The notes beneath the pieces were generated by a model. The model saw only the letters and a program-made list of their open reading frames with translations, did no database searches and was not told the DNA's origin. This document shows, one piece after another, positions 9,525-39,467 of a DNA stretch of 40,340 nucleotides. Source of the stretch: a virus. Position numbers and translations under genes: made by a program. Position 1 is the stretch's first letter, and each line of letters opens with the position of its first letter. The stretch spans positions 1-40,340 of IMG/VR virus record IMGVR_UViG_3300050821_002839. One strand, written 5' to 3'.

Positions 9525-10031
9525 ATGGCGCAACGAGGACCCAAACCGCTCGCGTTGCTCGACCGTTTTCGGCGTGGACTCCGCGCGGGGGCGCCTAGCG
9601 CGTGCTGGTTGTGGGGTCGGCGCACCGACGGGCGCGGCAAGGGGCACGTGCGGATCGCCGACGACGCGGGCGGGCGCATCTACGTGCACCGTCTCGCCTA
9701 CGAGCTCGCCCACGGGGCAATTCCGGCGGGCCTCGACGTGTTGCACCATTGCGACGTGCCCCGGTGTTGCAACCCGGCGCATCTATTCCTCGGCACGCAA
9801 GCCGACAACATGGCGGATAAGGTGCGCAAGGGTCGCCAGGCACGCGGCGAGGATGGGATCGGCTCGTCGCGGCTCACACTCGCGCAAATTCGCGAAATTC
9901 ACACGCTCGGCAAGACGCTTTTGCAGCGGGAAATCGCCGCCCGGTTCGGCGTTCGCCGTCCCACAATCTCGCGCATCCTTAACGGGACGCGCTGGCCTCA
10001 TGTGGCGGCGGGAGGTGCACCGTGCCCGTAG
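9525..10031 (+). CDS. HNH homing-type endonuclease
   Basis: The 168-residue product contains an HNH_3-like core: YVHRLAYELAHGAIPAGL, the catalytic LHHCDVPRCCNPAHLFLGT with HH at 74-75, N83 and H86, then a NADNM-like segment TQADNMADKVRKG. Residues about 119-156 form a C-terminal helix-turn-helix (LLQREIAARFGVRRPTISRI) that could direct DNA recognition. Freestanding HNH genes like this are mobile and interrupt phage operons. It lies between the tail terminator and sheath genes and overlaps the sheath start by 10 bp, so it has adapted to the operon. A packaging-associated role, as known for some HNH proteins, is less likely because it is far from the terminase genes. Confidence 0.88.
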   Translation: MAQRGPKPLALLDRFRRGLRAGAPSACWLWGRRTDGRGKGHVRIADDAGGRIYVHRLAYELAHGAIPAGLDVLHHCDVPRCCNPAHLFLGTQADNMADKVRKGRQARGEDGIGSSRLTLAQIREIHTLGKTLLQREIAARFGVRRPTISRILNGTRWPHVAAGGAPCP

Positions 10032-17246: not shown

Positions 17247-18943
17247 TGCGCCCCATCAAGAGCGCGGGCGGGCACAACTACGTCGAGGAAAAGCAACTCG
17301 GCGACCCGAAAATCCAAGCCGTCGAGGTCGACGCCGATTTCGACGTGATCTATGCCGCCGTGAACGGCATACCCGCCGGACCGCCGGGACCCGAGGGACC
17401 GTCGGGACCGCCAGGCTCGACCGGCGCGCCGGGACCGCAAGGCGACCCCGGTCCGACCGGCGCCACGGGCGGGCAAGGACCGCCAGGCGCCGCCGGCACG
17501 CCTGGCGTGACGGGTGCACCGGGACCGCAAGGACCCAAGGGCGACGCGGGCGCGACCGGGGCAACCGGATCGCAAGGACCGACGGGCGCGACCGGCGCAC
17601 AAGGCGCGCAAGGCGTGCCAGGCACCCCCGGTGCGACGGGGTCGACGGGACCGGCGGGCCCGCCGGGTGCCGACTCGACGGTGCCGGGACCGCAAGGACC
17701 CAAGGGCGACACGGGCACGACCGGCGCACAGGGACCACAAGGCGTCGCCGGTCCGACGGGTGCGACCGGACCGGCGGGTGCCGATTCGACCGTGCCGGGG
17801 CCGCAAGGACCCAAGGGCGACGTCGGTGCGACCGGATCGACCGGACCGCAAGGCGCCACGGGCACGCAAGGACCGCAAGGCGTGCCAGGCGCGACGGGGT
17901 CGACGGGGCCGGCGGGCCCGGGCGTCGCGGCGGGCGGTGCCGCCGGTCAACGCCTGCAAAAGTCGTCGGCGACGGACTACGCGACGGCGTGGGCCGACAC
18001 CGAATGGAAAGTAGCGGGCACGACGCTGACGCCGACCGATGCGACGAAAACGGCGATTCAACTCGGCTCCTCAACGGTCAAGGGTACGCTCAACCAGGAT
18101 GCCGGCGGCGATTGTTTCTGGCTAGTCAACAATGTCTTCGCTCCGCAGGACCCGTCACACCCCTCGTGGTCGGCGTGGATGGGCCACGCGACCGATGCGT
18201 TTACGATCCAGCGGAAACCGGCCAGCGGGTCGGGGGTCAACCTGCTCGCGCTCGACGCGACCGGGCAACTCACGTTGCCGACGAACGGCGCCAATAACGC
18301 GGTGATTTTCGGTCCTCGTCAAGCGAAGGGCCGACTGATTTCGCATCCTACGGCGGACCTCGGCTATCTAACTTTCAACGCCTCGCTGACCGCTGGGGGC
18401 TGGGCACAAGACAACGGGTCGATTTCTTCATGGATCGTGTCTCCAAACCCGGCAGGCGATCAATTCAACCTCAACCGTATTTCAAATGGGAGCACAACAT
18501 CGACAGGTATGCTGACGGTCGACGCGAGCGCGAACTTGATAATTACTGGCCCGGTCGGTCAGAAGGCTGCCGGGACGACGTGGGCGAATCCGTCCGACCC
18601 ACGGTTGAAAAACGACGTCCGCCCCTACGCCCGTGGCCTCGCGGACCTCCTCCCGCTCGAACCGATCGCGTACCGGTTGAAAGCGACTCCCGACTTGCAA
18701 TGTTACGGTTTTGACGCCGCCGCCGTGCGCGACGTGTTCCCCGAATGTGTGTCGGAGGTCCGCATGAAGCTCGACCCCGACGATGCCGAGGAAACCGACG
18801 GCGTGCTCGCGTTCGACATGCACCCGATTCTGGTCACGATGGTGACGGCAATCAAAGAGTTGGCAGCGAAGGTCGCGAGTTTAGAGGCGAAGGCGAACGG
18901 CGCGGCGCCGCCGGGTGCCGACGCGGGGGCCAATGCCCGCTGA
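17237..18943 (+). CDS. Tail fibre with collagen-like repeats and S74 chaperone domain
   Basis: The 568-residue product has four regions: an N-terminal attachment part (1-45), about 60 Gly-X-Y triplets (about 47-228; [15 protein letters not shown]), a variable beta-rich shaft or tip (about 230-450), and a C-terminal S74 intramolecular chaperone beginning at SDPRLKND with candidate Ser453/Lys458 dyad. Self-cleavage before Ser453 would release a 116-residue chaperone ending in a coiled coil ([20 protein letters not shown]). It is probably a trimeric host-recognition fibre. DNA coding for 260-450 is visibly AT-richer and uses other codons, a sign of exchange. ATG 17237 follows GGGAGG. Confidence 0.87.
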
Positions 18944-27647: not shown

Positions 27648-28601
27648 TCACCCCTCGCCGCCCGGTTTGGGGTCGGGAGCGGGCGCGCCGGGGACATCCG
27701 AGGGCGTCGTGGCGGGGGCCTCGGGGTCGCCGTGGCGCCGTCGCCGGATCCGCTCGGTCAACGCCGCCGTCGCCGAGGGCGCCCCACCCTCGGGGGTCGT
27801 CGCGGGTGGCGCGGGAAACTCGGCGGCGGCGGTCGTCTCGCCGTCCTTGATCGCGGTCAGTAGCCCATGCAACACCCCGAGGTCCTCAAGGTCGAGGTCC
27901 TCGACCCCGGCGCGTTCGAGTTTCACGAGCACCCGGTCGGCGGGTACCCCGAGCTCGCCGAACGCGGCGAGCGCCCGCGTGCGCCCCTCGCTCAACGTTT
28001 TCGCGTCGCCCGCCGCAACTTTCATAGCGACGGCGACGAGCTCGTTGACGAACGCGCGGGGCACGACGTTGAACGTGGCATTGCGCCGCGCGATCGCCGT
28101 GGTGGCGTTCGCGGTAAGCATGACGAGGTCGTCGGAGTACCGCTTGCCATGGCGGTCGACGATCCGGCGGCGCGTTTCGGTCACGACGGCATAGTTGCTC
28201 TCAAGGTCGTGGCAGTAGCCTTGCGACACGACCTCGCGGTCGGTTTCGGCGATCACCCGCCCCCCGGCACGCATGTTGCCCCAACACGAGGCGACGATTT
28301 CGGCGAGGCGCACGCTCGGGCCCGTGATCGTCTTTTTCTTGAACGTGCCGTCGTCTTGCCGTTCCCGGCGCGGCAATGCGTAGAAACACGACGCCGCCGT
28401 TGCTTGGTCGAGGCGGATCATGGTCAACGCCGCCTGCCGGAACCGGGCGAGGGATCGCGGGTAGCGGTGCGCCGTCGTGATTTGAATGTCGACCTCGGCG
28501 CGGGTGAGACTTTCGAGCGCCGTTGCCCCGATCGCGGCGTCGGTCGGCAAGTACCCCTCGACGATCGCCCGGTCGGTCGTCGGCACCGTGTCGGTGCTCA
28601 T
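27648..28601 (-). CDS. Recombination-associated protein (single-strand annealing protein candidate)
   Basis: The 317-residue product reads TALESLTRAEVDIQITTAHR, LARFRQAALTMIRLDQATAA, SCFYALPR, then GPSVRLAEIVASCWGNMRAG, YCHDLESNYAVVTETRRRIV, and RNATFNVVPRAFVNELVAVA. This arrangement is known from a conserved phage protein usually encoded beside YqaJ exonucleases; by context it is a functional counterpart of RecT/Erf-type annealing proteins, but no classical RecT motif is visible. The C-terminal 70 residues are Pro/Ala-rich. ATG 28601 has an excellent ribosome binding site (AAAGGGGAGG on the minus strand). Confidence 0.6.
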   Translation of the reverse strand: MSTDTVPTTDRAIVEGYLPTDAAIGATALESLTRAEVDIQITTAHRYPRSLARFRQAALTMIRLDQATAASCFYALPRRERQDDGTFKKKTITGPSVRLAEIVASCWGNMRAGGRVIAETDREVVSQGYCHDLESNYAVVTETRRRIVDRHGKRYSDDLVMLTANATTAIARRNATFNVVPRAFVNELVAVAMKVAAGDAKTLSEGRTRALAAFGELGVPADRVLVKLERAGVEDLDLEDLGVLHGLLTAIKDGETTAAAEFPAPPATTPEGGAPSATAALTERIRRRRHGDPEAPATTPSDVPGAPAPDPKPGGEG

Positions 28602-29512
28602 GCTGCCTCCCCTTTCGGTTCGTAGTACCGGAGTGAGGGCGACGTCGATTCCTTGACCGTGTGCTCTTTCCTCGTCACCGGAAAGTAGGTGATTCGCCCG
28701 TGTTCGCAGAATCCCGCCTCGGCGTCGCGCAACTCGGCGAGTAGGAACCGCTTGCACGTGTCCTCGTTCGCCGCCGCCTGCTTGGCGACCGCCCGCGCCC
28801 GCAACCATTCGAGCATGAGCACCGGATCGACCGCCACGGCGGGCGCGTCGCGGCGCCGCCGCCAGATTTTGAGGGTCGACAACGACGGCGGATCATACGG
28901 GGGCGGGCGATCGGCCTCGACGTGGTTCCGCCAGAAATCGACCTCGGCGCCGACCAATTCCTCGGCGAGCGCCGGGTCGAGCTCTAGGTGATACCGGCGC
29001 AACCCGCGCCCGTCGCCGAGTAGCGCCATGACCAACACGTGACGGATCGGGGGCAACTCGGGTTGCGCGGCGAGCACCACGAGGGTGTGCGTCACCTGTA
29101 CGAGCACCGATTCGGGCACCTCGTCGGTGCCGTCGTCGCCATAGGCGGCAAGCAGGCGCGACGGGCGGTTGAGGATTCCGCACGTTTTCGCCTCGACGAG
29201 GGTCGGCGGCGTCGCGTCGAGCGCCAACCCGTCGACGCTACACCCGAGGGGCGCGTCGGGGTGGCGAAACCAGACTTGCGGGGCGAGGGGCACCCCGAGC
29301 TCTTTGACGGCGGCACGTAACAAGAGCGGTTCGAGCGCCGACCCCAAGTCGCGCGGGTTGATCGGCGACCGTTCGGGGTCGGTGTCGGTCGGCACCCGCC
29401 CTGTCTTTTCCGCCCACAAGTCGCCCGCCGTCTTGAACGGGTCGACCCCGACGATCGCCGGGGCATCCGAGGCGCCGATCACGTCGCGCCGCCACAACAA
29501 GGACTCACCCAC
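28598..29512 (-). CDS. YqaJ-type exonuclease (lambda Exo superfamily)
   Basis: The 304-residue product is a PD-(D/E)XK nuclease that resects double-stranded ends. Motifs: RRDVIGASDAPAIVGVDPFK (residues 8-27), GSALEPLLLRAAV with E61, and the catalytic core CSVDGLALDATPPTLVEAKT with D94, E107 and K109. It probably loads the product of the next gene on 3' single strands. GTG 29512 is preceded by GGGAGGTG on the minus strand. Its stop overlaps the annealing-protein candidate start by 4 bp. Confidence 0.9.
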   Translation of the reverse strand: MGESLLWRRDVIGASDAPAIVGVDPFKTAGDLWAEKTGRVPTDTDPERSPINPRDLGSALEPLLLRAAVKELGVPLAPQVWFRHPDAPLGCSVDGLALDATPPTLVEAKTCGILNRPSRLLAAYGDDGTDEVPESVLVQVTHTLVVLAAQPELPPIRHVLVMALLGDGRGLRRYHLELDPALAEELVGAEVDFWRNHVEADRPPPYDPPSLSTLKIWRRRRDAPAVAVDPVLMLEWLRARAVAKQAAANEDTCKRFLLAELRDAEAGFCEHGRITYFPVTRKEHTVKESTSPSLRYYEPKGEAA

Positions 29513-29693
29513 GGGGCACCTCCCGCCCGAACACCCGCGACCATGACCGCGCGACGGCGTCGAGGCGGTCGAGGGCGTCGGCGTTGATCGCCTCGGCGGT
29601 CGCGCGCTCGACGTCGCCGCACCCGCACCGCCGCTCGAACAACCCGCCGTCGACGGGGTGCCAGGGTGACCACACGTGGCGGTGCCGCGTCAT
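29505..29693 (-). CDS. Small Cys-rich hypothetical protein
   Basis: A 62-residue protein (HRHVWSPWHPVDGGLFERRC, then GCGDVERATAEAINADALDR) with H/C ligands in the first half and a helix in the second. The ATG overlaps the HTH gene's stop (ATGA), and its end overlaps the exonuclease start by 8 bp. Unrecognised. Confidence 0.65.
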   Translation of the reverse strand: MTRHRHVWSPWHPVDGGLFERRCGCGDVERATAEAINADALDRLDAVARSWSRVFGREVPRG

Positions 29694-30007
29694 TGCGCAC
29701 CCCGCGACGGGCGCCGGGGGGCGGGTTTCGGGCGTTGCCGTTCCCACCACGCGACAAACTCGGTGTGCCGCACGTACCAGCGATCGGCGAGCACCCGCAC
29801 GAACGGTTCGTCCACGAGGGTGCGGCGCAACGTGCGCCAGTCGATCCCCAACCGCCGCGCCTCGGTGGTCACGTTGACCCACTCGCGGGCGAACGGATCG
29901 CGGCGGCGGCGAGTGGCAGGCGTGCCATTCGCACTCGCCGCCGATTTGCGTCGTCTGGTTGAGCGGGGGCGCGACTTGGTGGCGCTCACACGGCGGCGCG
30001 TCGGCAT
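29690..30007 (-). CDS. HTH protein, first gene of leftward operon
   Basis: The 105-residue product has a very basic N-terminus (PTRRRVSATKSRPRSTRRRK) and a helix-turn-helix-like core (EWVNVTTEARRLGIDWRTLR, then FVRVLADRWYVRHTEFVAWW) of excisionase/MerR type. It probably binds DNA and could control the divergent promoters beside it, or act as a directionality factor for the recombinase. A G-run ribosome binding site precedes the ATG. Confidence 0.75.
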   Translation of the reverse strand: MPTRRRVSATKSRPRSTRRRKSAASANGTPATRRRRDPFAREWVNVTTEARRLGIDWRTLRRTLVDEPFVRVLADRWYVRHTEFVAWWERQRPKPAPRRPSRGAQ

Positions 30008-30155
30008 TCAGCACCCCCCCCGGATCCCGCGCGCCTGGCGCGGGTGACCTTGCGCGTGTCTAAGGACCCGCTAGCGGTACACCCGGTGTCATACATCGTC
30101 AAGACTTTTTGTCGTAATTGTTCGATCGTGCGTGCTTTGCCACTCTTGTCGCGGT
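30008..30155. promoter_or_regulatory. Divergent early control region
   Basis: AT-rich 148-bp spacer between leftward and rightward early genes. It contains ACACC-C-GGTGT (30079-30089, perfect inverted repeat), a leftward TTGACG (-35-like, read on the minus strand just right of that repeat), and two rightward-oriented TTGTCG sites: TTGTCGTAA (30109-30117) and TTGTCGCGG (30146-30154). The latter is the reverse complement, with one mismatch, of the tandem unit TCGCGACAA downstream at 30537. It probably holds both early promoters and operators; exact -10 elements are not clear. Confidence 0.6.
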
Positions 30156-30557
30156 ATGCCCGACGATGTGCCGCCGAAATCCGCTCGCGGGCGCAAGACG
30201 TCGACGACCAAACCGGTGACGATCCGGTTTGACGTCGAGCTCATGGCACGCCTCGTCGACGAGGCGCCGTTGCAACGCCGGAGTGTCGGCAACCTCTTGC
30301 AAAAACTCGTCGCCGACGGGCTCGACCGCCTCGCCGACGAACGGGCGGTGCGGACGGTGCAAGCGAATTATCGGCACCTGCTTGCCGGCGTGGGCCATCG
30401 CGAGTTGCTCGCGATCCTGGCGCATCAAGAGGCGGTCCTCGCACGCCGCCGGGGCGACCCGCCGATCCCCCTGCCGCCGTTGCCGCCGTCGTTGCGCCTG
30501 CGCCGCCCGCGTCGCAAGCCGACCAAACGTGGCAAATCGCGACAATCGCGACAATAG
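30156..30557 (+). CDS. Ribbon-helix-helix transcription regulator
   Basis: The 133-residue product has a disordered start, an RHH domain (about residues 15-50; KPVTIRFDVELMARLVDEAP, RSVGNLLQKLVADGLDRL), a helical middle and a Pro/Arg-rich basic tail. RHH dimers bind tandem short sites through a beta ribbon. It is the first rightward early gene, so it is a candidate master repressor or switch. Its last codons (SRQSRQ) are themselves part of a 9-bp tandem repeat, and similar sites occur upstream, suggesting autoregulation. ATG 30156 has no strong ribosome binding site, so translation may be weak. Confidence 0.75.
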   Translation: MPDDVPPKSARGRKTSTTKPVTIRFDVELMARLVDEAPLQRRSVGNLLQKLVADGLDRLADERAVRTVQANYRHLLAGVGHRELLAILAHQEAVLARRRGDPPIPLPPLPPSLRLRRPRRKPTKRGKSRQSRQ

Positions 30558-30581
30558 CGACGATAGCGACATTTGCGACAA
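30537..30581. repeat. Five tandem 9-bp repeats (consensus TMGCGACAA)
   Basis: Units: TCGCGACAA, TCGCGACAA, TAGCGACGA, TAGCGACAT, TTGCGACAA, head to tail without spacers, crossing the stop codon of the RHH gene. The GCGAC core is invariant. The reverse complement appears upstream of the same gene at 30146-30154. It lies 14 bp before a TTGACA box, so it is well placed as an operator array for the next promoter. Plasmid omega/CopG-type RHH proteins are known to bind unspaced short tandem sites. Confidence 0.85.
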
Positions 30582-30594
30582 GTTACCTAGTACC

Positions 30595-30624
30595 TTGACA
30601 CACTCCGGGGTCGAGGTCTAGACC
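30595..30624 (+). promoter_or_regulatory. Promoter with palindromic operator
   Basis: TTGACA (30595-30600), a perfect -35 box, is followed after 18 bp by TAGACC (weak -10) inside the palindrome GGTCTAGACC (30615-30624), itself flanked by GGGTCG and CGACCC. The gene at 30634 begins 10 bp later, so any leader is very short. A repressor on the palindrome would block the -10 region. Confidence 0.5.
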
Positions 30625-30633
30625 GACCCGGTC

Positions 30634-30819
30634 ATGCGGGCAACGGATCGGGTGGGGCGCGACGGTCACGCGGCGCCGGTCGCCCCACCCGACGCGGCGC
30701 CCGCGCCCGTGCCGGTCGTGTTCGTGCCCCCCGCGACGCCCGAGGACGACGCCGAGGCGCGGCGGCGGTGGGTCGAGGCGTGCGACATGCTCGCGACGAT
30801 CGGGGCCCTCGACGCATGA
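30634..30819 (+). CDS. Small hypothetical protein
   Basis: A 61-residue protein: Pro/Ala/Val-rich first half (VAPPDAAPAPVPVVFVPPAT), then an acidic helix (EDDAEARRRWVEACDMLATI). Not recognised. It directly follows the operator-promoter region and precedes a terminator-like hairpin, so it may be transcribed as a single short unit. Confidence 0.55.
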   Translation: MRATDRVGRDGHAAPVAPPDAAPAPVPVVFVPPATPEDDAEARRRWVEACDMLATIGALDA

Positions 30820-31086: not shown

Positions 31087-31280
31087 TGGGCGCCGTGTTC
31101 CCTACCCCGACGCCGAGCTCACCCCTCCGCGTGGTCGTGAGTCGCGTTGCCGAACCCACGTGCACGATCGACACCCTCGAATGTGGGCACCGAGTGTACG
31201 ACCACGACAATCGCCCCGTGACCCGCCGACGGTGTGCGGCGTGCGGCAAGACGGCAACGGCAAAGGCGGTGCGCGTATGA
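31086..31280 (+). CDS. Small Zn-ribbon protein
   Basis: A 64-residue protein with CTIDTLECGHRVYDHDNRPV and RRRCAACGKTATAKAV: a C-x-H plus C-x2-C layout typical of a short treble-clef or Zn ribbon. It is coupled by overlaps to both the RHH-like gene before it and the serine recombinase gene after it (ATGA at 31277-31280). Function unknown. Confidence 0.65.
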   Translation: MGAVFPTPTPSSPLRVVVSRVAEPTCTIDTLECGHRVYDHDNRPVTRRRCAACGKTATAKAVRV

Positions 31281-32878
31281 CCGCCCGACGCGCCGCCCTC
31301 TATGCGCGGGTGAGCACCGACGAGCAGGTCGAAAAGTACGGCCTCGACGCGCAAGTGACCGAGCTCCGCGCCCTCGCGACCGCCCGTCAATACGCCGTCG
31401 TCGAGGAATTTGTCGACGAGGGGGTGAGTGGCGCCGTGCTCGACCGCCCCGCGTTGACCCGGTTGCGTGACCTCGTCGCCGCCAAGGGGGTCGACGTGGT
31501 CCTCACCATGGACGCCGACCGCCTCTCGCGCGACTTGGTCAATCACTTGCTCGTGCTCGACGAGCTCACCCGCGCGGGCGTCGGATTGGAGTTTCCGAGT
31601 CACACGGTCGACCCCTCCGCCGAGGGGCAATTTCGCGAACAAGTCCTCGGCGCCGTCGCCCAACTCGAACGCGCCAAGATCCGTAGTCGCACCGCACGCG
31701 GGCGCCGCGAGAAAGCGCGCCGGGGGTTGCATCCGACGGGTAAGGCGCCGTTCGGGTACCGCCGCGACGAGGCGGCGGTCGGTGGCCTCGCCGTCGACCC
31801 CGACGAGGCGAACGTGGTGCGGCGCCTATTCGAGTGGGTCGCCGACGGCGCCGCGATCCGGGCGGTGGCGGCACGCCTCGACGCGCAAGGGGTCACGCCG
31901 CGCGAATCGGCACGGTGGTCGCGGGCGACGGTACGCAAGATGCTATGGTCGGACCTCTACACGGGCACGGGCGTATACAACCGCCTCGACAAGTCGGGCG
32001 CCGCCGCGACGGTGCGCGCCGAGTCAGAGTGGATCCGCTACAAGGTGACGCCGATCGTGTCGGTCGGGCTCGCCGAACGCGCCCGCGCGCAACTCGACCG
32101 CAACAAGCACCTCCTCCGGGGGCGCCCCGCGCGCCGCGTGTTTCTACTCGGTGGCCTGGCGGTGTGCGGCGGGTGCGGGCGGCGCATGCACGGCGACACC
32201 CGACGGGCACGCACCACGTACCGGTGCGAGGGGCGGATCCTCCCCAAGCCGGACCGGTGCAACTTCCGGGCGTTCGCCGACGACCTCGAACCCCGCGTGT
32301 GGGATGCCTTAGTCGGCGTGATTCAGGATCCCGACATCCTCGCCCCGACGGCACGGGCGTCACGCCTCGGGATCGACGCCCGCCGGGTCGACGCCGCCAC
32401 CGAGGTCGCCGAGCTCACCCGCGCCCTCGACAAGGTCACCACGAACCGCAACCGCCTCGTCGACCTCTACGTCGACGGGCGCCTCGACCGCGCCGACTTG
32501 GACGCCAGGGAACCCAAGTTGAAAGCCGAGCTCGACCGCCTCACCCGCGCGGTCGCCGAGGCACAGGCACGCGTCGCCGTCGGGCACGCCGACGCCGACC
32601 GGCACGCCGCCGTCGTCGCATACTGCAAACTCGTCGCGCGGGGGATCGCCCGCCTCGACCCGGCGCAACGCCAAGCGTTCGCCCGCAAGGTGCTCACCCG
32701 CGTGGTCGTGCACGAGGGGCGGGTCGAGGTCGAGGGCGTGTTCAACCTCGCCCTCGGCACCGACGGCGAGAAACCCCAACAACCACAAGGGGGGGTAATG
32801 GTTACTCCCTCTCCCCGGAGTAATCATTACTCACTCCGCCTCACCGTAGACCTTGGGGAACCGGCATGCCAGGGGTGA
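31277..32878 (+). CDS. Large serine recombinase (integrase)
   Basis: The 533-residue product has the full layout of large serine integrases: a resolvase catalytic domain (1-140) with nucleophile Ser13 in ALYARVSTDEQ and MDADRLSRD (R82/R85), a recombinase domain (GKAPFGYRRDEAAVGG, 155-255), a Zn ribbon (C297, C300, C317, C328), and a coiled coil (about 375-430). It would integrate and excise the phage between attP and attB. It lies inside the early operon. The 3' end (32796-32829) carries an inverted repeat. The ATG overlaps the upstream stop. Confidence 0.93.
   Translation: MTARRAALYARVSTDEQVEKYGLDAQVTELRALATARQYAVVEEFVDEGVSGAVLDRPALTRLRDLVAAKGVDVVLTMDADRLSRDLVNHLLVLDELTRAGVGLEFPSHTVDPSAEGQFREQVLGAVAQLERAKIRSRTARGRREKARRGLHPTGKAPFGYRRDEAAVGGLAVDPDEANVVRRLFEWVADGAAIRAVAARLDAQGVTPRESARWSRATVRKMLWSDLYTGTGVYNRLDKSGAAATVRAESEWIRYKVTPIVSVGLAERARAQLDRNKHLLRGRPARRVFLLGGLAVCGGCGRRMHGDTRRARTTYRCEGRILPKPDRCNFRAFADDLEPRVWDALVGVIQDPDILAPTARASRLGIDARRVDAATEVAELTRALDKVTTNRNRLVDLYVDGRLDRADLDAREPKLKAELDRLTRAVAEAQARVAVGHADADRHAAVVAYCKLVARGIARLDPAQRQAFARKVLTRVVVHEGRVEVEGVFNLALGTDGEKPQQPQGGVMVTPSPRSNHYSLRLTVDLGEPACQG
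32796..32829. repeat. Inverted repeat within recombinase 3' end (attP candidate)
   Basis: Arms TAATGGTTACTCC (32796-32808) and GGAGTAATCATTA (32817-32829) pair at 12 of 13 positions around an 8-nt centre; another ATTACTC follows at 32826. It is far less GC-rich than surrounding DNA and is located at the end of the recombinase gene, where serine integrase attP sites commonly lie. It could instead be a transcription or RNA-processing hairpin. Confidence 0.4.
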
Positions 32879-33717
32879 CACCCGCGACCCGTCGCTTGCG
32901 CCTCCTATCGCTCGGGGCGGGCGTGCAATCGTCGACGCTGCTCCTGCTCTCAATACGCGGCGAGTTGCCACCCCTCGACGCCGCGATTTTCGCCGATACC
33001 AAGTACGAACCGGAAGCGGTGTATGCCCACCTCGCGTGGCTTGAGGAACTCGCCCGCGTGGCGGGCGTGCCCATCTATCGCGTGTCGGGCGGCAACTTGC
33101 GTCGTGACACGCTCGAAAATCAGGTGCCAGGCGTGGTCGGCAAAGATCGTCGGTGGGCATCCATGCCGTTTTTCCTCGACGGGGGTGCCGGCGACGACCC
33201 CGGCATGGTGCGCCGCCAATGCACCGACGAGTACAAGTTGCGCCCGATCCGCAAGCAGGTGCGGGCGCTCGCCGGCCTCGCCCCCGGCGAACGGGCGGGC
33301 GACCGCGTGCACGTCGAACAATGGGTCGGCATGTCTGCCGACGAGCTCTCGCGGGTGCGTGTCAGTCCCGACTATTGGATCGACCTCCGCTATCCGTTGA
33401 TTTTCGACCTCCGCCCCGCGTGGACGCGCGCCGACTGCCACGCGTGGTTGCAGCGCGAGTACCCAACGCACCCGGTGCCGCGTTCGGCGTGTATCTCGTG
33501 CCCGTTCCATAGTAACGCCGAGTGGCGACGCATGCGCGACTGTGACCCGGTGTCGTGGCGTGAGGCGGTCGCGTTTGACCGCGCCATTCGCAAACTCGGG
33601 GGCATGCGCGCCGACGCGTATTTACACCCGTCGTTGCGCCCCCTCGACGAGGCGCCAATCGACGACGTCGATCCGAGACAAGGCACGCTCTTTTCGTGCG
33701 GCGTGTGTGGGACGTGA
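32866..33717 (+). CDS. PAPS reductase-like N-type ATP-PPase
   Basis: The 283-residue product has the PP-loop LLSLGAGVQSSTLLLLS (about 13-29), followed by DAAIFADTKYEPEAVYAHLA and RQCTDEYKLRPIRKQ, as in the PAPS reductase/adenine nucleotide alpha-hydrolase superfamily. A Cys pair in SACISCPFHSN and a terminal CGVCG could hold a metal or cluster. Members activate substrates by adenylation; roles range from sulfate reduction to tRNA and DNA thiolation. The phage role is unknown. It overlaps the recombinase gene by 13 bp. Confidence 0.8.
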   Translation: MPGVTPATRRLRLLSLGAGVQSSTLLLLSIRGELPPLDAAIFADTKYEPEAVYAHLAWLEELARVAGVPIYRVSGGNLRRDTLENQVPGVVGKDRRWASMPFFLDGGAGDDPGMVRRQCTDEYKLRPIRKQVRALAGLAPGERAGDRVHVEQWVGMSADELSRVRVSPDYWIDLRYPLIFDLRPAWTRADCHAWLQREYPTHPVPRSACISCPFHSNAEWRRMRDCDPVSWREAVAFDRAIRKLGGMRADAYLHPSLRPLDEAPIDDVDPRQGTLFSCGVCGT

Positions 33718-38815: not shown

Positions 38816-39385
38816 ATGGGCGTCGAGGTGCGCGTCGAAATGCAGACCGACATTTTGCGCGCGATCGCGGACTCGGTGTCCGATCCGGGGTTTCGCGACC
38901 TCGCCGCCCGCGCCTTGAACGACACCGTTGCCGACGCCGAACGCCAAACCGCCACGTTGCTCGGACCGTTCATGCCGGGGTTGCGCCCGAGCGACATCAC
39001 CGCCGCCCTCTCGACCACCCCCGCGCGCCCCGAACACCTCTCGGCGTCGCTCGTCGGCGGCGGCAAGGCGTTGCCCATGATCCGGTTTCAACCCCGTGCC
39101 AGTCGCGCCGAGGGCGTCACGATCACGATTGCCGGCAAAACCGAACGCTACCGGCACGCGTTCCTCGCGACCGTCAAACACGGGCACGAGGGCGTGTTTG
39201 AGCGCAAAGGACGCGAGCGGTTGCCCATTCGCGAGCTCTACGGCCCGTCGGTGCACGGCATGATGGCACGCACCGACGTGTTGCCCCGGATCACCGCCGA
39301 ATTGGAAAGCGACTTGCTCGCGAACCTCGCCCGCCAACTCGACCGCGCCGTGCGCCGTGCCGGCGGGCATCCGGCGGGCGCCTAG
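38816..39385 (+). CDS. Minor tail protein Z-like (GpZ)
   Basis: The 189-residue product resembles the GpZ/tail-completion family: RALNDTVADAERQTATLLGP, SASLVGGGKALPMIRFQPRA, VTITIAGKTERYRHAFLATV, KHGHEGVFERKG, and the closing RLPIRELYGPSVHGM, a strong family signature. GpZ acts in tail completion. It is displaced here, about 12 kb from the last rightward tail-region gene on the linear map but only about 12 kb before the sheath gene if the genome is circular. ATG 38816 follows the previous stop by 4 bp. Confidence 0.65.
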   Translation: MGVEVRVEMQTDILRAIADSVSDPGFRDLAARALNDTVADAERQTATLLGPFMPGLRPSDITAALSTTPARPEHLSASLVGGGKALPMIRFQPRASRAEGVTITIAGKTERYRHAFLATVKHGHEGVFERKGRERLPIRELYGPSVHGMMARTDVLPRITAELESDLLANLARQLDRAVRRAGGHPAGA

Positions 39386-39438
39386 CGTCGCGCCGTCGGC
39401 GTCGCTATACGCGACGGTGCCTCACCACCCCACCACCC

Positions 39439-39467
39439 GGCACGTGCTCGCCCTCGGGGCACGTGCC
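39439..39467. terminator. Hairpin between convergent genes (bidirectional terminator candidate)
   Basis: GGCACGTGC (39439-39447) and GCACGTGCC (39459-39467) form a 9-bp stem with an 11-nt loop in the 115-bp gap between the rightward GpZ-like gene (ends 39385) and the leftward gene (ends 39501). No T-tract on either side. Each arm contains the palindrome GCACGTGC, so it could also bind a protein. Confidence 0.5.

Follow-up and report, generated by a model that had tools for sequence, protein, structure and literature searches.

A tandem 9-bp array at the 3′ end of a phage RHH gene, a candidate operator for an integrase promoter

The RHH1 locus and its repeats

The window, which is the whole stretch of DNA analysed here (virus record IMGVR_UViG_3300050821_002839, 40,340 bp, 70% GC), contains terminase, head-protease, tape-measure and baseplate genes together with a serine integrase gene that marks an integration cassette. 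Because it carries both structural genes and a serine integrase, we regard the window as a temperate phage. A small regulator gene, called RHH1 here, lies between a leftward operon and the integrase cassette (Table 1).

Table 1 Features of the RHH1 locus in the window
Feature	Position	Strand	Description and evidence
YqaJ/RecE-like exonuclease, leftward operon	28598-29512	-	Pfam YqaJ 9e-16; phrog_434 6e-39
Divergent small HTH protein, excisionase-like	29690-30007	-	phrog_66 E=0.019
Inverted near-copy of the repeat, RHH1 promoter region	30109-30117	-	TTGTCGTAA; minus strand reads TTACGACAA
Inverted near-copy of the repeat, one base before the RHH1 ATG	30146-30154	-	TTGTCGCGG; minus strand reads CCGCGACAA
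RHH1, small RHH (CopG/Arc-type) regulator gene, 133 aa	30156-30557	+	Start ATG 30156, stop TAG 30557; ORF read, weak Pfam and profile matches
Array of five head-to-tail 9-bp repeats	30537-30581	+	Consensus T(C/A/T)GCGACAA; direct reading, shuffle statistics, counterparts in L006-L008
Array unit 1	30537-30545	+	TCGCGACAA; codons S-R-Q
Array unit 2	30546-30554	+	TCGCGACAA; codons S-R-Q
Array unit 3	30555-30563	+	TAGCGACGA; opens with the RHH1 stop TAG
Array unit 4	30564-30572	+	TAGCGACAT; past the stop codon
Array unit 5	30573-30581	+	TTGCGACAA; past the stop codon
Integrase-cassette promoter TTGACA-N18-TAGACC	30595-30624	+	TTGACA at 30595-30600, TAGACC after 18 bp; pattern shared with L006-L008
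First integrase-cassette gene, 61 aa	30634-30819	+	ATG at 30634; 56% over 46 aa to L009 9849-9986
Second, Arc-like RHH protein, 61 aa	30901-31086	+	phrog_2639 E=0.03; tblastn to L008 E=2e-6
Small gene, 64 aa	31086-31280	+	ORF; no family match
Serine integrase (large serine recombinase)	31277-32878	+	Pfam Resolvase 2e-34, Recombinase 6e-17, Zn_ribbon_recom 6e-8; phrog_95 7e-102

Five unspaced 9-bp repeats cover the last codons and the stop codon of RHH1, as the initial annotation had claimed, and extend 24 bp beyond that stop. The array is a genuine tandem repeat. Its period-9 identity of 32/38 is the maximum across the window, while the shuffle maxima were 29 (100 order-3 Markov shuffles) and 27 (100 codon shuffles) and none of 100 reached the array value; against local dinucleotide shuffles, the array gave p<0.0005. 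The TTGACA promoter that had been noted just 3′ of the array is present, 13 bp past the array end and 38 bp past the RHH1 stop. It is conserved in three related phages (L006, L007 and L008), since the pattern CTTGACACA-N15-CTAG has exactly one match in the window and one in each of these loci.

The ATG lies 9 bp past the -10 hexamer in the window (30619-30636) and 9-13 bp past it in the relatives. A start codon this close implies a very short leader for the integrase-cassette mRNA, which is likely to be leaderless or nearly so. In a further locus, L009, a homologue of the first cassette gene precedes a related serine integrase. L009 was recovered via its serine integrase and is without the RHH1-array layout; in its serine-integrase cassette (9668-9986), an RHH-like ORF overlaps this homologue in another frame.

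The RHH core of RHH1 covers approximately residues 19-58. The protein matches Pfam RHH_5 with E=0.016 (15.4 bits, under the curated cut-off of 26), its homologue in L004 has an RHH-domain match with E=0.0003 that is likewise under the cut-off, and the family profile A3 matches the CopG-family structure 6iya with E=0.0008. The RHH assignment is thus based on sub-threshold matches of single proteins and a family profile, and for the counterparts in L006 and L007 on sequence pattern and position only. Structure models and Foldseek were uninformative on the RHH fold; the RHH1 model has helices at 27-36 and 42-79, without a strand, at a low pLDDT of 57. Searches with RHH1 against INPHARED phages, PLSDB plasmids and GTDB contigs gave no matches, nor did an RHH profile search of 392 genomes. 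Among 2.9 million viral contigs, RHH1 has one relative, L004, with 71% identity over 48 aa and 61% over the aligned length.

The C-terminus of RHH1 reads KRGKSRQSRQ*. The proposal that array DNA encodes the terminal SRQSRQ holds, as the reading frame continues into the array up to the TAG that opens unit 3. The L004 homologue already ends with ...KRKPT; at this point the window has ...RRKPTKRGKSRQSRQ, and the last ten residues of RHH1 are therefore extra. Judged from this alignment, the SRQSRQ tail seems incidental, a by-product of the array.

Both inverted near-copies of the repeat that had been described in the RHH1 promoter region exist (Table 1). At one mismatch, T-N-GCGACAA shows no enrichment across the window (44 found vs 40 expected). 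Two such sites within the 150 bp 5′ of RHH1 correspond to p of about 0.005 relative to other 150-bp stretches, for a hypothesis that was picked after seeing the sequence. In the relatives, no convincing counterpart of these inverted promoter copies was found. Given the unenriched motif, the post hoc hypothesis and the lack of a convincing counterpart, we rate autoregulation of RHH1 via the two promoter copies as plausible.

Several other features of the window were recorded. Directly 3′ of the integrase gene, a phosphoadenosine phosphosulfate reductase-like gene (32866-33717; phrog_424, 2e-41) is likely an auxiliary metabolic gene. Tandem repeats of 9, 18 and 45 bp lie at 17371-17667 inside a long ORF 3′ of the baseplate genes; they resemble collagen-type Gly-X-Y repeats, looking like those of a tail fibre. 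ARAGORN predicted a tRNA-Ile (anticodon tat) at 39350-39443 on the minus strand, partly overlapping the neck-protein gene 38816-39385 in antisense, and the prediction is possibly a false positive. An Rfam search gave no match.

Related phages and exchange of the cassette

Using the YqaJ/RecE-like exonuclease as query, we found the three related phages L006-L008, whose counterparts share 53-56% identity with the window exonuclease. On the strand of the RHH-like gene, the order in all three is a small RHH-like gene, an array, the TTGACA promoter, an HTH gene, an Arc-like gene and a tyrosine-type integrase, and on the opposite side an HTH gene and the YqaJ gene run divergently away (gene start codons were picked by eye in these loci). 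The HTH protein of the window aligns with the equally placed HTH genes of the relatives, and homologues of its Arc-like protein precede the integrase there.

In L006-L008, the arrays have a period of 10 bp and lie 3′ of the stop codon of the RHH-like gene, outside the coding sequence. The L007 array reads TCGTGTCGTTTCGGGTTGTTTCGTGCTGATACGTGTCGTT and the L008 array ACGTGTCGTCTCGCGTCGTTTCGTGTCATATCGTGTCGTTTCGGGTAGTT, both with p<0.0005 for period 10; in L006, TCGTGTCGTTTTGGGTAGTTTCGCG is followed by decayed units, and period 10 alone gives p=0.06. With a PWM built from the other loci, the array units are among the top-scoring sites of each locus. The distance from the RHH stop to TTGACA is 101-114 bp in the relatives, and despite the differing distances, the array and promoter elements keep their order and place in all four phages. 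The repeats are thus contiguous, stand beside a promoter and are conserved in relatives, which is the arrangement expected of an RHH repressor with a tandem operator.

Scanning viral contigs for the 10-bp array pattern brought back the known relatives together with further contigs. In 294 genomes of one phylum, the matches to a YqaJ profile were all at about 30%, and none had the cassette. L016 and L017, from a GTDB scan with the HTH of L006-L008, were rejected as RecG false positives. We also dropped the idea that the arrays of L006-L008 are arm sites of the tyrosine integrase; in these phages a long distance separates the array from the integrase gene, and an array is also present in the window, whose integrase is of the serine type.

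The comparison of the window with the L006 contig suggests how these elements have changed. The flanks at 24.6-28.9 kb and 33.4-38 kb are collinear and homologous, at about 45-69% identity, and the segment spanning the RHH gene to the integrase gave no match at the threshold used. RHH1 and the RHH-like proteins of L006-L008 show 20-26% identity in forced alignment, with a negative profile comparison, while the HTH and Arc-like proteins are alignable at 30-36%. The repeat unit is the 9-bp TCGCGACAA in the window vs the 10-bp TCGTGTCGTT in the relatives, and both carry TGTCG on one strand. The integrase is of the serine type in the window and of the tyrosine type in L006-L008. Since the RHH gene, the repeat unit and the integrase are non-homologous between homologous flanks, regulator and array appear to have changed together, as expected if all three were exchanged together, like an immunity cassette. 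L006-L008, which share a repeat unit, have similar strand residues in their RHH-like proteins (KRFVIG, KRFVVG and RRIALG), and those of the window are KPVTIR. This comparison of four loci, two of them close kin, is consistent with a matched pair of RHH protein and array and cannot prove it.

The initial annotation had proposed to look for co-variation of array and protein in relatives, and had named arrays absent from relatives with the same RHH domain as an observation against its reading. On the first, unit and RHH gene both differ amid homologous flanks. On the second, L004 counts against it, because this homologue of RHH1 has no array 3′ of its stop or upstream and no clustered 9-bp sites near the gene, though it sits in a different gene context from that of the window.

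What may bind the array

The array holds the same place beside a conserved promoter in three related phages, which supports a role as operator array for the integrase promoter. The adjacent RHH protein is probably what binds it, a reading that draws on gene position and on the joint change of gene and unit.

The strongest of the rivals keeps this site as an operator or nucleoprotein site of the integrase promoter and assigns it to another cassette protein, either the excisionase-like HTH protein or the Arc-like RHH protein. Both genes are present in 4/4 phages, and binding to tandem or paired sites is also known for HTH excisionases and for Arc-type proteins. However, the repeat unit changes between the window and its relatives while these two proteins stay alignable, and it is RHH1 that is replaced. 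Moreover, L008 and L007 have the same unit, yet the strand residues of their Arc-like proteins differ. We consider binding by one of these proteins unlikely.

A second alternative is that the array is a functionless, neutral repeat, produced when slippage at the end of a coding region copied an SRQ codon triplet on beyond the stop codon. A period of 9 is a multiple of 3, two units are codons, and the RHH1 tail is not conserved in L004, all of which would fit. The arrays of the relatives, however, are equally placed although they are non-coding, have a period of 10 and consist of another unit, making this explanation improbable.

A phage replication origin with the units as its iterons also seems quite improbable. 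The L007 array is preceded, at 16 bp, by a perfect DnaA box, TTATCCACA, and the L006 array at the same spacing by TTGTCCACA, but neither the window array nor the L008 array has a DnaA box nearby. In addition, what is conserved next to the array is a promoter, 9-10 bp would make short iterons, and the helicase-like gene is 6 kb off. The DnaA-box-like sites of L007 (9281-9273) and L006 (8141-8133), both on the minus strand, are the only such boxes in those loci.

The partition-like centromere that had also been suggested, with the RHH protein as ParB/ParR, is very improbable: RHH ParB proteins do occupy unspaced runs of short repeats that are operators as well (omega, 7-bp heptads, PMC9499535), but a ParA-type ATPase (PF13614) was absent from the window and the L006-L008 records, with 14/14 control genomes positive, and every one of these phages has an integrase.

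A model for RHH1 and comparison with known systems

We then propose that RHH1 binds the array and controls, most likely represses, the integrase-operon promoter, and that it limits its own synthesis via the weak inverted copies; we give this reading as a whole a probability of about 0.6. Because RHH dimers elsewhere bind adjacent repeats cooperatively and spread, RHH1 may fill the array and thereby control the cassette promoter. RHH1 dimers would bind the 9-bp units cooperatively, head to tail, at the end of their own gene. The resulting nucleoprotein filament beside TTGACA-N18-TAGACC would control the operon whose last gene encodes the serine integrase, most likely by repression and possibly through spreading onto the promoter. 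By way of the two weak inverted copies, RHH1 may in addition keep both its own synthesis and the divergent leftward early operon in check. On this reading, the locus would be the control centre of an integration/immunity cassette in a temperate phage. We infer repression rather than activation; with the array 5′ of the -35 element, activation would fit as well, and so would a roadblock that stops transcription reading through from the RHH gene. Of the earlier idea that one protein controls both its own gene and the next operon, the conserved array at the next promoter favours the second half, while autoregulation is the weaker half.

It is tempting to go further, and we tentatively suggest that such loci form a class of phage immunity cassettes. 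In these, the 3′ end of the regulator gene would be the fixed seat of the operator array, the two would be exchanged as one piece, and the array would be able to enter the reading frame and supply a C-terminal tail. If the proposed reading is true, the small RHH gene, tandem array, TTGACA-N18-TAG and integrase would form a compact marker for the control region of an uncultured temperate phage group, one with regulators that are unmatched in reference collections of phages and plasmids. It would also offer a natural experiment on the joint change of RHH proteins and repeat units, including a change of period from 9 to 10 bp.

RHH repressors such as Arc and Mnt of P22 and those of the MetJ/CopG type share the RHH fold and bind adjacent sites cooperatively. 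Their operators, at the promoters of their own genes or of target genes, comprise two to a few sites, whereas the window array spans the stop codon of the regulator gene. F55 of Sulfolobus virus SSV1 is likewise a small viral RHH protein, a repressor that keeps lysogeny and binds cooperatively to tandem repeats, both at early promoters and at that of its own gene (PMC5569661). Unlike the phage studied here, SSV1 is an archaeal virus, and its repeats come in pairs within several promoters, where the window has a row of five unspaced units at the 3′ end of the regulator gene itself. SvtR of SIRV1 resembles the proposed system in that its high-affinity site lies away from the promoter, with spreading from this strong site into the promoter proposed (PMC5569661), but the site is an inverted repeat and the virus is archaeal. 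Dimers of omega, the RHH-type ParB of pSM19035, cooperatively occupy short direct repeats that follow one another without spacing and have operator function (PMC9499535); these are 7-bp units with a ParA partner in plasmid partition, while the window has 9-bp units, no ParA and an integrase cassette.
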